Shown here piece after piece: positions 2,075 to 6,044 of a stretch of 64,000 bases of DNA. The notes beneath the pieces are model-generated. The model was not told the DNA's origin, did not search any database, and saw only the letters and a program-made list of their open reading frames with translations. The stretch lies in NCBI GenBank assembly GCA_024653485.1, contig JANLFY010000008.1:1-64000 (forward strand), given 5' to 3'. The number at the start of each line of letters is the position of its first letter. Positions within the stretch are counted from its first letter, which is position 1. The position numbers were made by a program, and so were the translations under genes. The stretch is from Bacillota bacterium (GTDB lineage Bacteria > Bacillota > SHA-98 > UBA4971).

Positions 2075-3268
2075 TCAGCCTTCAGCCGCCCAAACGAAGC
2101 GTTTCGGTCGCTTGGTCTTCGTGGGAGTGAGGTAGCCCTCTTGCACCAGGGCTTCGAGGTCTCTGTACGCTGTCGTCGCGCTGACCCGGAAATGTTCCTG
2201 ATAGCTTCTGGCCGTCCAGACGCTGCCCCGTTGGGCAAGGACGAGAGCTTCGCGCACGCGTCCCACATGGTCTCTCACGGAGACGGCGCCTGAATCAGAC
2301 GGCACTGTGTCTTGCCCCGTGAGGTCCCACCCGACGTGGCCCTCGGCGACCGCACTTGCCGTCTGCGTGTCGTTCCAAGGAACGGTCTCGCCGGCACCCT
2401 CAAACCCCTCCCGAAGCACGACCACAGCGGCGGATAGCCAGCGGTACGCCATATTCTGAGCTATGCCTCGCGTCTCCGCGAAGAGCCACTGCACTGCCGG
2501 ATACTCCGCCTGCAACGCTGCTACGACGTTGAGCAGCCACGCCGTAGAGACTCGGGCTTCTCTCGCTGCTTTCACCATGTCGCTGAGACGTCCCTCCACC
2601 ACGAGGATGCTCCTTGGCAGTTGGCTTAGCTCGGCCAGCTGCATTCTCAAGGTGCCCGATGACACGGCGCTAACTACATCACCCAGCGACTTGCGTTCCA
2701 CCGCCGCCACAAGCTTGTCTCCGAAGAACACACCGTAGTCTCCCACTGGGAGCTCTCTTCGCTCTGTTCGTGCGTTCTGGCGCGGGAACTTCCAGGGATA
2801 GCGTTCCCGATGGTCTACGGCCACCGCGAGCACCCGCTTCTCCAAGCCCCTCGCGACCGGCACACGGATTCCCGGGCGTGCTGATTGCATAGTCTTCTGG
2901 GTCCGCCAGAAAACAAGCGTGCGTCCTCGGCTCTCCGTCCAGATGAACATGGAGCGACGCCTTTGGCGCCGCCTCAGAACCAAGTGGACTGCCTTGCCCG
3001 CCCGCCAGCATGACTGAACAGGGGCTGTCTCGAGCACTTCCGATTCCGCAGGCCACGCATCGGCCTCCAACTCCAGGCAGAAGAGGTCCTTGCCGTGCGG
3101 CCACGTATCCGAGGTCGCCAGGACGAGAGGACGTTCCCCGGCCACGGGTAGGGAAATGAGGTAAGGCAGCCGCGTGTTAGACTTGGGATTGCGAGCCACG
3201 ATGAACGCGTGGGAAGCAGGCTCATTTCTGGAACGTGCGCCAGCGGAACTCGTGTCGTCAGTGCTCAA
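2075..3268 (-). CDS. ERCC4-domain nuclease with C-terminal winged helix-turn-helix
   Basis: This 397-residue protein carries an XPF/ERCC4-type nuclease core in its middle. Residues 151-155 read VDHRE, GDY is at 176-178, and the catalytic ERKxxxD signature (ERKSLGD) is at 191-197. The family cuts branched or flapped DNA using a divalent metal. The last 60 or so residues look like a winged helix (SATTAYRDLEALVQEGYL) of the kind that reads DNA. The first 130 residues are basic, rich in Trp and Arg, and not recognised. The start is TTG, with GAGGTGAG 5 bases upstream. The gene follows rsgA on the same strand after 167 bases. A role in DNA repair, or in control of a mobile element, is inferred. 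Confidence 0.75.
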   Translation of the reverse strand: MSTDDTSSAGARSRNEPASHAFIVARNPKSNTRLPYLISLPVAGERPLVLATSDTWPHGKDLFCLELEADAWPAESEVLETAPVQSCWRAGKAVHLVLRRRQRRRSMFIWTESRGRTLVFWRTQKTMQSARPGIRVPVARGLEKRVLAVAVDHRERYPWKFPRQNARTERRELPVGDYGVFFGDKLVAAVERKSLGDVVSAVSSGTLRMQLAELSQLPRSILVVEGRLSDMVKAAREARVSTAWLLNVVAALQAEYPAVQWLFAETRGIAQNMAYRWLSAAVVVLREGFEGAGETVPWNDTQTASAVAEGHVGWDLTGQDTVPSDSGAVSVRDHVGRVREALVLAQRGSVWTARSYQEHFRVSATTAYRDLEALVQEGYLTPTKTKRPKRFVWAAEG

Positions 3269-3435: not shown

Positions 3436-4365
3436 TTAACAGGGACCACCACGCACCAGCTTCACGTAATGCTCATAGCGCGAGCGTCGTATGAATCCCG
3501 ATTCGACGGCGTCGCGCACGGCACATTCCGGCTCAGAAACGTGGACGCAGTCGGAGAACCTGCACCTTCCGATGTAGGGCCTCATTTCCCGGAAGCACGG
3601 CGCGAGGTCCCTGGCCGGGATCTCCCACAGCCCGAATTCCCTCATTCCGGCGGTGTCTGCTACGAATCCACCGGCTGTCAGCGGGATGAGCCGCGAGGCG
3701 GTGGTCGTGTGCCGCCCCCGGTGAGTGGTCTTCCCGACTTCTCCTGTGGCCAGCTTGATCCCGGGCTCGACCGCGTTGAGCAGGGACGACTTTCCGACCC
3801 CCGAAGGTCCTACCACGACGGAGATCCTCCCTGAGAGAACAGCATTGAGCTCGTCGACGCCCTGGCCGGTCCTGACGCACGTGCGGAGAACGCGGTATCC
3901 GATCTCCTCATACGGAGCTGCCATTCCCTGGACGTCTTCTGGAGACACGAGGTCGATCTTGTTGAGACACACGATACAAGGTATGCCGGAATGCTCGGCT
4001 ACGGCCAGGTAACGGTCAAGGGCCCTCGCTCTGAACGCGGGTTCAGCTGCGGCGAACACGATGACGATCCGGTCGACGTTCGCCGCGATGACTTGTTCTC
4101 CGGGGCGGTCGCCCGCCGCTCTCCGTCCGAACGAGTTGCGTCGTTTCTCAATCTCCTCTATCACGCCCTTGTCGTGCTCGAGTAGCGCAAGGCGGACGAG
4201 ATCGCCCGGCGCGACCGGGTTTGTGGCGCTGCCCGTCTCCCTCACCAGCCTGCGCCTGATCGTGCAAAGGACAGCCCTGCCGTCGACTAGGACGTGGTAC
4301 ACGTCGTTTCCTATCTGCAGAACGAGTCCGCGGCGGAGGTTGTCCTCTGGTACGCGTTCACCCAT
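3436..4365 (-). CDS. rsgA: Ribosome small-subunit-dependent GTPase A (RsgA)
   Basis: RsgA is a circularly permuted GTPase that helps late maturation of the 30S ribosomal subunit. The order of motifs shows the permutation: an OB-fold N-terminus, then NKID (G4), then the P-loop GPSGVGKSS (G1), then DTAG (G3). A C-terminal zinc knuckle follows with the pattern CRFSDCxH and a last Cys eight residues after the second. The length of 309 residues is normal. I chose the ATG at 4365 because GGAGGTGGAG precedes it, although the frame is open further upstream. It overlaps the small upstream gene by 8 bases, which suggests coupled translation. Confidence 0.93.
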   Translation of the reverse strand: MGERVPEDNLRRGLVLQIGNDVYHVLVDGRAVLCTIRRRLVRETGSATNPVAPGDLVRLALLEHDKGVIEEIEKRRNSFGRRAAGDRPGEQVIAANVDRIVIVFAAAEPAFRARALDRYLAVAEHSGIPCIVCLNKIDLVSPEDVQGMAAPYEEIGYRVLRTCVRTGQGVDELNAVLSGRISVVVGPSGVGKSSLLNAVEPGIKLATGEVGKTTHRGRHTTTASRLIPLTAGGFVADTAGMREFGLWEIPARDLAPCFREMRPYIGRCRFSDCVHVSEPECAVRDAVESGFIRRSRYEHYVKLVRGGPC

Positions 4366-4579
4366 CGGACTCCACCTCCCCGTCGTCATCGAAGCCACCG
4401 AGGAACTCATCGATGAGCTCCATGATCTCCTGATTATCGCGACGCGGCGAGCCGTGGCGTCCCGCATGCCTTTCCTGGCGCCGCGCCTTGAGGCGTTCCT
4501 TCATCTTGACTCGATTGCGCTTTTGCTCGAGGTTCTTCTTGATCCCTGCTACTTGGTGCTTAGTCAATCTATCTGCCAT
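4358..4579 (-). CDS. Small basic protein with acidic tail, upstream of rsgA
   Basis: This 73-residue protein is not a family I recognise. Its first two thirds are strongly basic and probably helical (KKNLEQKRNRVKMKERLKAR), and its last 20 residues are acidic (GGFDDDGEVESDG). It has a good ribosome binding site, GGAGGT, 9 bases before the ATG. Its stop overlaps the rsgA start by 8 bases, so the two genes look translationally coupled. The charge pattern and the neighbour hint at an RNA or ribosome link, which is inference only. It is likely to be real, given the binding site and the overlap. Confidence 0.6.
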   Translation of the reverse strand: MADRLTKHQVAGIKKNLEQKRNRVKMKERLKARRQERHAGRHGSPRRDNQEIMELIDEFLGGFDDDGEVESDG

Positions 4580-4734
4580 CGGTACATGACCTCCATTATC
4601 ATCTTCGCGTGACGTGCGACAGGGTTGCTCGAGCGATCCTGTCGGTCGCCTTCGAAGCTGTCCTCAACGTCTTGAGTCCATGGCCTCCTTCCTTGTGAAC
4701 CGTCGCCTATCGTGTCTGGTCGGTACACAGGAAA

Positions 4735-4760
4735 GCCGTGGGCGACGCCTCACCCACGGC
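4735..4760 (-). terminator. Hairpin with short T run, minus strand
   Basis: GCCGTGGG pairs with CCCACGGC across a 10-base loop. Read on the minus strand, the hairpin is followed by TTTC. It is the second of two hairpins downstream of the Cys-rich mini-gene. Confidence 0.45.
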
Positions 4761-4793
4761 TCGAAACTAGACAGGATGTCTCGACAAACGGAA

Positions 4794-4813
4794 ATGCCCG
4801 CCAGCGCGGGCAT
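4794..4813 (-). terminator. Perfect 8-bp hairpin, minus-strand terminator candidate
   Basis: ATGCCCGC and GCGGGCAT form a perfect stem around a four-base loop. On the minus strand the stem is followed by TTCCGTTTG. It lies 60 bases beyond the stop of the Cys-rich mini-gene and would end that transcript. Confidence 0.55.
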
Positions 4814-4872
4814 ACAGAGCCGGTCTAGACTCACCTGACATGAGTTGCAGGCAGGAACCCAGTTCTCTGCTC

Positions 4873-4980
4873 TTAGGGGTTCCCGTTCATGTCAGGGCCT
4901 TCCTTCATGCCCCGACGGCAAGGTGGGTGAGGCGAATTGTGCCAGCAGCAAACATACCCGCAATGGCCCTCTTCACACAA
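4873..4980 (-). CDS. Possible Cys-rich mini-protein, 35 residues
   Basis: From a TTG at 4980 this frame encodes 35 residues with Cys at 2, 7, 11, 12 and 21 and His at 6, 14 and 18, ending in a Gly/Pro/Asn tail. GGAGG lies only 4 bases before the TTG, which is tight. The case rests on context: a TTGACA-17-TACAGT promoter sits 40 bases upstream and two hairpins follow the stop, so this is a self-contained short transcription unit. The frame stays open up to an ATG at 5163, but that lies before the promoter. A GTG six bases inside the start could begin another peptide of about 23 residues. The unit could also be a small RNA. Confidence 0.4.
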   Translation of the reverse strand: MCEEGHCGYVCCWHNSPHPPCRRGMKEGPDMNGNP

Positions 4981-5017
4981 CCCACCTCCGTTCCGGAAAC
5001 ATGATCCAGACGCTATA

Positions 5018-5046
5018 ACTGTAGCACCCGAGGGAGACGATGTCAA
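5018..5046 (-). promoter_or_regulatory. Sigma-A-like promoter, minus strand
   Basis: Read on the minus strand, TTGACA (5046-5041) and TACAGT (5023-5018) are 17 bases apart. Transcription would begin near 5011 and run into the Cys-rich mini-gene. Confidence 0.55.
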
Positions 5047-5448
5047 CAGCGGCCTCCCTGTTCTCTCACAAACCGTTCCCTGCGAAGTGGGTTGATGGAT
5101 GCGTTCCGGCTCATAGAGGAAAACGCATGGATGTCTAGAAGTGCCCATCATGCTCCTTGCCAAGCGGTGAGCGTTGACTATATCGCGGTCGGCCGCGCAG
5201 CGCAGCCGAACACAATGTCGACGTGGATGGAAAGCACTATGGCTGGGAGCATATCGGAGATCTCCTGGCTCGGCTCGATGAGGGGCTTGCTGTGACCGTC
5301 AAGGTCAGCGATGTGACCTCCTGAGTCGTAGCGGTATATCGGCTGGCCGGGCCGTGCCATGAACAGGCGGCCTGAAAGCTGGCGGATCAGGAGATGGCCG
5401 CACGGACGACGTATGAGCCGGGAGAGACGGCGGATGGGGGGAGTGAGT
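5047..5448. other. Intergenic stretch, nothing recognised
   Basis: Short open frames exist on both strands but none has a convincing ribosome binding site or a recognisable product. No strong hairpin was found. Confidence 0.4.
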
Positions 5449-5898
5449 GTGAATCTGGAGGAGGTTGCCTATTGCGGGTTGTATTGTGGCCTGTGTGCGA
5501 GCCGGCGGCGCATTCCAAAGCAGGCTGCGACGCTGCGCGAGTCCCTACGCAAGGAGGGATACGATCGCGGTTACTTCGATGTGCCCGGTCTTGACAAGGT
5601 GTTCGCCGCGTTCTGGGAGGGGCTCGGGCTCCTGGTCGACGTGCCTTGCCCGGGATGTCGAGCGGGCGCGGGTTTTCCCGATTGTAGCGTCCGGGCGTGC
5701 GCGCAGGAGCGGGAGGTGCTCGCTTGTCCCTTCTGTTCCGATTTCCCCTGCGATAGACTGGCGATGCTGAATCGCTACCCGCTTCTCGTGGCTGACGGCG
5801 AGAGGATGCGCCAGCTTGGTCTCGAAACGTGGGTAGCGGAGCAAGAGGCTCGAGCAGCTGCCGGATTCGCATATGCCGACGTGCGTTATCCGGAATAG
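5449..5898 (+). CDS. DUF3795-like cysteine-rich protein
   Basis: This protein of 149 residues starts with the pattern AYCGLYCGLC and continues with CPGC, CSVRAC and CPFCSDFPC pairs. That is the Cys layout of the DUF3795 family, whose members probably bind a metal and have no proven biochemical role. The length is usual for the family. I chose the GTG at 5449 because GGGGGGAG lies 6 bases upstream. GTG at 5443 and ATG at 5434 are in frame but overlap that site. The gene stands alone between convergent and divergent neighbours. Confidence 0.7.
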   Translation: MNLEEVAYCGLYCGLCASRRRIPKQAATLRESLRKEGYDRGYFDVPGLDKVFAAFWEGLGLLVDVPCPGCRAGAGFPDCSVRACAQEREVLACPFCSDFPCDRLAMLNRYPLLVADGERMRQLGLETWVAEQEARAAAGFAYADVRYPE

Positions 5899-6044
5899 CT
5901 ATCGGCAATAGCCACAGACAGCCACCAACGTCTTTGCACGTGGCTGCGTCCATTTCGGCAAGGATAGGCTCACCGGGCGGGCCATGGCAATACCATGGCA
6001 ATACAATGTATCATGCGCTTTACTCCGCGAACGAAGAGACGTGC

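Follow-up and report, generated by a model that had tools for sequence, protein, structure and literature searches.

RsgA is a housekeeping factor of 30S subunit maturation. Ribosome stalling is known to be sensed by attenuators built on a short upstream open reading frame (uORF), one of which controls the gene of a spare GTPase, HflXr (PMC6310831). In the toiL-topAI system of Escherichia coli, a uORF-controlled transcript is turned on when tetracycline or retapamulin holds ribosomes at start codons (PMC12121999). A structured RNA containing a uORF, the uORFC-6-1 motif, precedes hflX, mostly in Bacillales (PMC8632094). Streptomyces coelicolor has a second RsgA/EngC gene in its WblC regulon, the pair being SCO6149 and SCO5211 (PMC7157823). 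Overproduction of RsgA has been reported to inactivate ribosomes and to inhibit phage T4 (PMC10475562). No report of an attenuator or uORF at rsgA was recognized in searches of the open-licence literature, and the available text of PMC2965389 has no occurrence of rsgA, that of PMC9290621 one, in a table. The type of switch is known, and its use on rsgA looks new.

The window analyzed here, 64,000 nucleotides of contig JANLFY010000008.1 from a Bacillota bacterium, contains an accessory rsgA gene (rsgA2) whose 5' leader is probably a ribosome-controlled transcription attenuator. The window's own genome is referred to as G000, a genome of the same genus as G002, and a genome of the same class as G016. 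The features of the locus are as follows.

5046-5018, minus strand: promoter TTGACA-17-TACAGT, constitutive-looking, with TG preceding the second hexamer
4989-4980, minus strand: uORF ribosome-binding site, with GGAGG at 4989-4985
4987-4980, minus strand: segment a, AGGTGGGT, the 5' arm of hairpin P1, within the uORF ribosome-binding site
4980-4873, minus strand: Cys-rich TTG frame, its 35 codons at 4980-4876 reading MCEEGHCGYVCCWHNSPHPPCRRGMKEGPDMNGNP, not conserved and judged not to be a gene
4976-4905, minus strand: uORF of 23 codons with a GTG start, MKRAIAGMFAAGTIRLTHLAVGA, stop included
4934-4923, minus strand: segment b1, CGCCTCACCCAC, able to pair instead with the 5' arm of the terminator
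4928-4921, minus strand: 3' arm of P1, ACCCACCT, partner of a
4911-4909, minus strand: segment b2, GGC, a second antiterminator piece from duplex prediction, with partner GCC at 4760-4758
4813-4794, minus strand: terminator-like hairpin T1 from the terminator scan, ATGCCCGCGCTGGCGGGCAT followed by TTCCGTTTGT, kept in G002 and G016
4761-4734, minus strand: terminator-like hairpin T2, from inverted-repeat arms and RNA fold
4760-4746, minus strand: segment c, the 5' arm and loop of T2, GCC GTGGGTGAGGCG
4579-4358, minus strand: gene, stop included, for a basic protein of 73 residues, predicted to be helical and without a known family
4365-3436, minus strand: rsgA2, accessory RsgA GTPase gene, stop included, its start overlapping the end of the 73-codon gene

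The near-ideal promoter and the ribosome-binding site of the initial annotation stand as listed, and so does its 35-codon frame, with five Cys and three His behind a TTG start at 4980. Both of its hairpins are also present, but the T-rich flank described for the second is in the window a T-poor tail, TTTCCTG, where G002 and G016 have TTTT runs instead. T2 has 12-base arms that are 92% complementary and 13 pairs in the RNA fold, and is absent from the list of the terminator scan, which includes T1. Beyond that first reading lie the GTG frame at 4976-4905, a perfect 12-base complement between its 3' part (4934-4923) and the 5' arm and loop of T2 (4757-4746), and the downstream operon. Of the two frames, the GTG frame has the more favorable distance from the ribosome-binding site, with 8 bases separating its start from GGAGG compared to 4 for the TTG frame. 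Region 4000-6000 held three promoter-like sites versus a mean of 0.4 in shuffles, and a promoter scan revealed no further minus-strand consensus promoter between the leader and the 73-codon gene or rsgA2. The RNA of positions 5017-4730 folds at −132 kcal/mol (z score of −4.52), and none of 200 shuffles was equally stable.

Several smaller features accompany the leader. Between the uORF and T1, the plus strand carries a 10-base perfect inverted repeat (CCTGACATGA / TCATGTCAGG; window 4834-4843 and 4888-4897), and the sequence around it is not kept in G016. In G000 and G002, a one-codon frame, GTG TGA (4978-4973, minus strand), opens two bases ahead of the uORF start; G016 (ATG) and another relative, G127 (TTG), have a comparable frame, which is absent from the other ten leaders. 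The window's own genome contains one further DNA match to the stretch, 29 bases long, and a repeated element was rejected as a candidate, this sole match being, by reading, a ribosome-binding site and the start of another frame.

A DNA search of 101 genomes returned matches in three: the window's own genome, G002, and G016. Both hairpins are kept in the latter two, as are TTGACA, the uORF ribosome-binding site, and the GTG frame in its 3' part. The stretch had initially been described as a self-contained unit, a description not supported by G002 and G016, where the leader stands before the same operon as in the window. The promoter and terminator-like hairpins should give a short RNA, as had been proposed, but not an independent one; because the leader precedes the same operon in both relatives, the most suitable reading of this RNA is an operon leader whose transcription has terminated. 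On sequence grounds, we assign the stretch to the rsgA2 operon as its control region (5' leader) and reject a gene for a small cysteine protein.

The 73-codon gene starts about 155 bases beyond T2. RsgA2 matches PF03193 at 192.6 bits (cutoff, 30) and TIGR00157 at 245 bits (cutoff, 100), and also matches RsgA/EngC structures in the PDB. The 73-residue protein is mainly helical by structure prediction (mean pLDDT, 72.6) and had no Pfam or NCBIfam match at E values up to 1. Two designed-protein chains in the PDB (E values of 0.11 and 0.74) were rejected as homologs, as was a match in genome G004 (E value of 0.0475) that was lost in the profile search. This gene was found by profile search in 3 of 17 class genomes, and in 3 of 398 genomes of the phylum sample, namely, G000, G002, and G016; a profile search of genome contigs with the protein gave no match. 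The same three class genomes have two rsgA matches, and the other 14 of the 17 have one. Two rsgA matches were present in 13 of 61 genomes, and the rsgA2 profile search of genome contigs returned 164 relatives, with identities of at most 47% among the best 80 of the 164.

Around the operon, an ERCC4-domain nuclease-like gene (E value of 2.7e-12; window 2075-3268, minus strand) lies downstream of rsgA2 in the window and upstream of the leader in G002. In genome G005, a neighboring desaturase-like gene is kept with no rsgA2 behind it; because the contig is 4 kb, an empty rsgA2 site there is only suggestive. A scan of 10 proteins among the gene neighbors of rsgA paralogs revealed no common context.

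Accessory copies of rsgA extend beyond these three genomes. When 398 genomes of the phylum were searched with RsgA2 as the query, 15 had a match at an E value of 1e-66 or better; 13 of these have two rsgA matches, and the two least complete, G280 and G157, have one. In an RsgA tree of 70 rows (15 accessory copies, 12 ordinary copies of the same genomes, and 43 others), with SH-aLRT support from a quick search, the accessory copies fell into group A (nine rows; support, 100) and group B (six rows; support, 98), apart from the ordinary copies. The accessory label requires 2 changes on this tree, compared to a mean of 13.9 when shuffled. Groups A and B, supported as two groups, lie together on a branch (support, 99) that also includes nine rows, among them Chloroflexota, Planctomycetota, and Poribacteria. 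Both groups share linker residues before the GTPase domain, where 44 to 45 of 52 other RsgA sequences have a gap, and both have T at position 222 (HTTT), where 44 of the 52 have R.

Reading by eye, which covered accessory loci alone, found a ribosome-binding site and a uORF of 22 to 34 codons before the accessory rsgA in 14 of the 15 genomes; no leader was seen at the accessory locus of G295. A terminator-like hairpin could be named in 13 of the 15, G157 being the exception among the 14 leaders. TTGACA is exact in 8 of 9 group-A leaders, all 8 with a spacer of 17, and the group-B promoter sites are poorer (7 to 9 of 12). A leader detector, the sole means applied to second copies in other phylum genomes and run on retrieved loci, flagged 8 of 15 accessory loci versus 0 of 114 other rsgA loci at its strict setting, 13 of 15 versus 3 of 114 at medium, and 12 of 15 versus 17 of 114 when relaxed. 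The 19 loci flagged among 149 by an earlier version were all accessory copies; they represent nine genes, since several genes occur at multiple loci. In genome G092 (L138), a direct repeat of well over 100 bases, about 230 bases apart, was visible by eye upstream of the leader.

Two pairings compete for segment b. In P1, the ribosome-binding site pairs with the 3' part of the uORF. Of the 117 cells of a nine-row alignment, 89.7% pair. The covariation score of P1 was above all 500 shuffles and every slid register, the structure being derived from the same alignment on which it was tested. Two of five measures were not above shuffles: 151 of 500 were equally high for both-side pair changes, all of which lie within the four-pair basal helix, and 403 of 500 for further pair types. 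Native a-b duplexes had only a slight stability advantage over swapped duplexes, with 361 of 20,000 permutations reaching values as low. The alternative pairing joins b to the 5' arm and loop of T2 (b:c); in the window, G002, and G016, all 12 bases of it pair. A tabulation of five leaders shows changes on both sides at position 1 in G002, position 2 in G016, G092, and G127, position 5 in G127, and position 6 in G016 and G127; G092 and G127 have two nonpairs apiece at the outer end. A second short b:c piece follows 11 to 14 bases later in the predicted duplexes of seven group-A leaders with T2.

Native b-c duplexes were more stable than swapped duplexes, with 0 of 20,000 permutations as low across 13 loci and 2 of 20,000 across eight representatives, both tests being inflated by related loci. 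When b was shuffled 300 times at single loci, support for b:c was strong in G000, G002, and G016 (0 as low in each), moderate in G092 (7) and G148 (9), and weak in G033 (30), G234 (31), G160 (36), and G127 (43), and there was no support in G201 (143), G225 (231), G280 (133), or G257 (268). These comparisons indicate a b:c switch that is well supported in the window's lineage and weak or unsupported in several distant relatives. Mutually exclusive terminator and antiterminator pairings, together with an anti-antiterminator, are found in the window, G002, and G016.

These elements suggest a mechanism. The promoter would start an RNA carrying the 23-codon uORF. With no ribosome present, a would pair with b to form P1, leaving c free for d, and transcription would stop at T2, with T1 adding a further stop. 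If a ribosome were held at the start or on the first codons, it would cover a, and b could then pair with c before d is made; with the terminator blocked, the genes for RsgA2 and the small basic protein would be transcribed. On reading to the end of the uORF, a ribosome should cover b and restore termination.

This logic was compared with predicted folds of 13 leaders, using transcripts cut before d and a start region held single-stranded as if by a ribosome. With a ribosome at the start, b:c formed in 11 of 13 leaders (6.6 to 14.1 expected pairs) and failed in G280 and G225. With no ribosome, P1 prevailed in seven of the cut leaders (G000, G016, G092, G127, G280, G148, and G225), P1 and b:c coexisted in four (G002, G257, G160, and G201), and b:c prevailed in two (G234 and G033). 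A ribosome at the stop codon removed b:c in 8 of 13; its predicted persistence in the other five (G002, G016, G092, G160, and G033) runs against a simple switch logic. The uORF stop lies well beyond b in G002 and G016, so in these two genomes a ribosome would have to sit on b itself. In full-length folds with a ribosome at the start, T2 beat b:c in 12 of 13 leaders, with G033 as the exception and the window giving a mixed result (4.4 versus 6.7); the choice between b:c and T2 must therefore be kinetic, made during RNA synthesis. In these models, the switch logic fits the window well and several relatives in part.

Taken as a whole explanation, a ribosome-controlled transcription attenuator of the rsgA2 operon has a probability of about 0.7 in our judgment. 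Comparison among the genomes shows the position of the leader, the uORF, P1, and, in the window's lineage, b:c with its compensatory changes. We infer that the switch is used in cells, that it is triggered when translation inhibitors or comparable stress stall ribosomes, and that RsgA2 assists 30S subunits during such stress.

The case for translation of the uORF rests on its start codon, its ribosome-binding site, the range of its length, and gaps that preserve its frame. A GTG-type frame is open in G000, G002, and G016 (23, 34, and 31 codons), with LTHL common to all three, and the start-to-b gaps in the leader alignment are 0, 3, 6, or 9 bases, all multiples of three; frames of 22 to 34 codons arise from 11.6% of the window's 5,452 start codons. 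The retention of start codon, ribosome-binding site, open frame, and frame-preserving gaps speaks against a leader switched by a protein or ligand, such as RsgA2, the small basic protein, or a ribosomal protein, with a uORF region that is mainly RNA structure. Conservation of the structured core without conservation of the uORF peptide sequence would suit such a leader, but Rfam gave no match at its gathering score anywhere in the window, the best subthreshold match being a CRISPR-repeat hairpin (25.9 bits; cutoff, 35), and we consider this explanation unlikely.

Substitutions between the uORFs of close pairs showed no third-codon-position bias, so the uORF peptide is probably not a specific arrest peptide. 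By reading, the 14 uORF peptides contained no RLR, no shared motif, and no run of codons for one amino acid. The absence of a single-residue run and the little peptide sequence shared across the 14 uORFs also make it quite improbable that the leader is an amino acid attenuator, in which scarcity of one charged tRNA would stall the uORF ribosome. That kind of leader has an identical a-b-c-d layout, and THL or similar codons recur in group A, but these codons are the same bases that pair in P1 and b:c, and the target gene encodes a ribosome factor rather than a biosynthetic function.

A covariance model built from the nine group-A leaders matched 11 of 398 genomes when searched with Infernal's stricter filters. 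The nine leaders, which match by construction, had E values of 1.2e-11 or better; beyond them were a second place in G092 (E value of 9.5e-7) and two weak places, in G082 (0.00276) and G036 (0.0273), with surroundings known as ORF lists. A stand-alone, trans-acting small RNA could have its own promoter, a fold this stable, and terminator-like hairpins, but nine strong matches among the 398 genomes lie before the same kind of gene, compared to one isolated copy and two weak matches, and the uORF is conserved. We give the small RNA little credence. The isolated copy (G092:C73 [L170], 3992-4084) is a leader core followed by a short frame that includes a metallopeptidase-like stretch (GAHEFGHLLLHP); inspection by eye revealed no terminator there, and the copy may be a relic or a re-used leader. 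The Cys/His-rich mini-protein gene of the initial annotation, although open for 35 codons with five Cys and three His in the window, was dropped as scarcely credible, since its TTG lies 4 bases from GGAGG and its frame stops after six codons in G002 and three in G016 (where the first codon is TTA), with loss of the Cys pattern in both genomes and retention of the hairpins and the promoter, the very finding that the annotation had named as counting against it.

For the attenuator, the most likely role, by analogy with HflXr, is provision of a spare RsgA when translation is inhibited. A bolder proposal, which we offer tentatively, is that accessory RsgA proteins under uORF attenuators form an inducible class for rescue or protection of 30S subunits, the small-subunit counterpart of HflXr, with a leader that senses any start-held ribosome without an arrest peptide. 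Such a leader would respond to many inhibitors, or else to slow, immature 30S subunits of the cell itself; in the latter case, the extra RsgA would act as feedback that repairs initiation. That several families keep a separately evolving second rsgA under an apparent stall-sensing leader suggests a role specific to stress, and a direct test becomes possible of whether 30S GTPases, like HflX, have become inducible answers to translation inhibitors. A leader as indifferent to its peptide as the substitutions suggest would report on start-held ribosomes in general. Since RsgA overproduction is reported to inhibit phage T4, a phage-stress role for rsgA2 is, by analogy, another possibility.

Compared with known systems, the leader shares with rli80-hflXr the order of promoter, short ORF with a ribosome-binding site, and regulated gene. 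The Listeria rli80 leader, before hflXr, has a 14-codon ORF with an RLR arrest motif, whereas the 14 peptides of rsgA2 leaders contain no such motif; HflX acts on 70S and 50S particles and RsgA on 30S, and induction and resistance were demonstrated for rli80-hflXr, whereas the rsgA2 switch is a prediction from sequence comparison (PMC6310831). An arrest motif marks macrolide-type leaders rather than all uORF attenuators, because toiL responds to start-codon stalling. Like the proposed rsgA2 uORF, toiL senses ribosomes held at a start codon, but it acts via translation and Rho-dependent termination of a toxin-antitoxin transcript, whereas the rsgA2 leader would use intrinsic terminators (PMC12121999). 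The uORFC-6-1 motif, likened here by its description, is also a structured uORF RNA before the gene of a ribosome-associated GTPase, but that gene is hflX, and the main text of the report has no occurrence of rsgA (PMC8632094). In S. coelicolor, as described, a spare RsgA is likewise tied to the response to translation antibiotics; control there is by a transcription factor, whereas rsgA2 here would be controlled by its own leader (PMC7157823).
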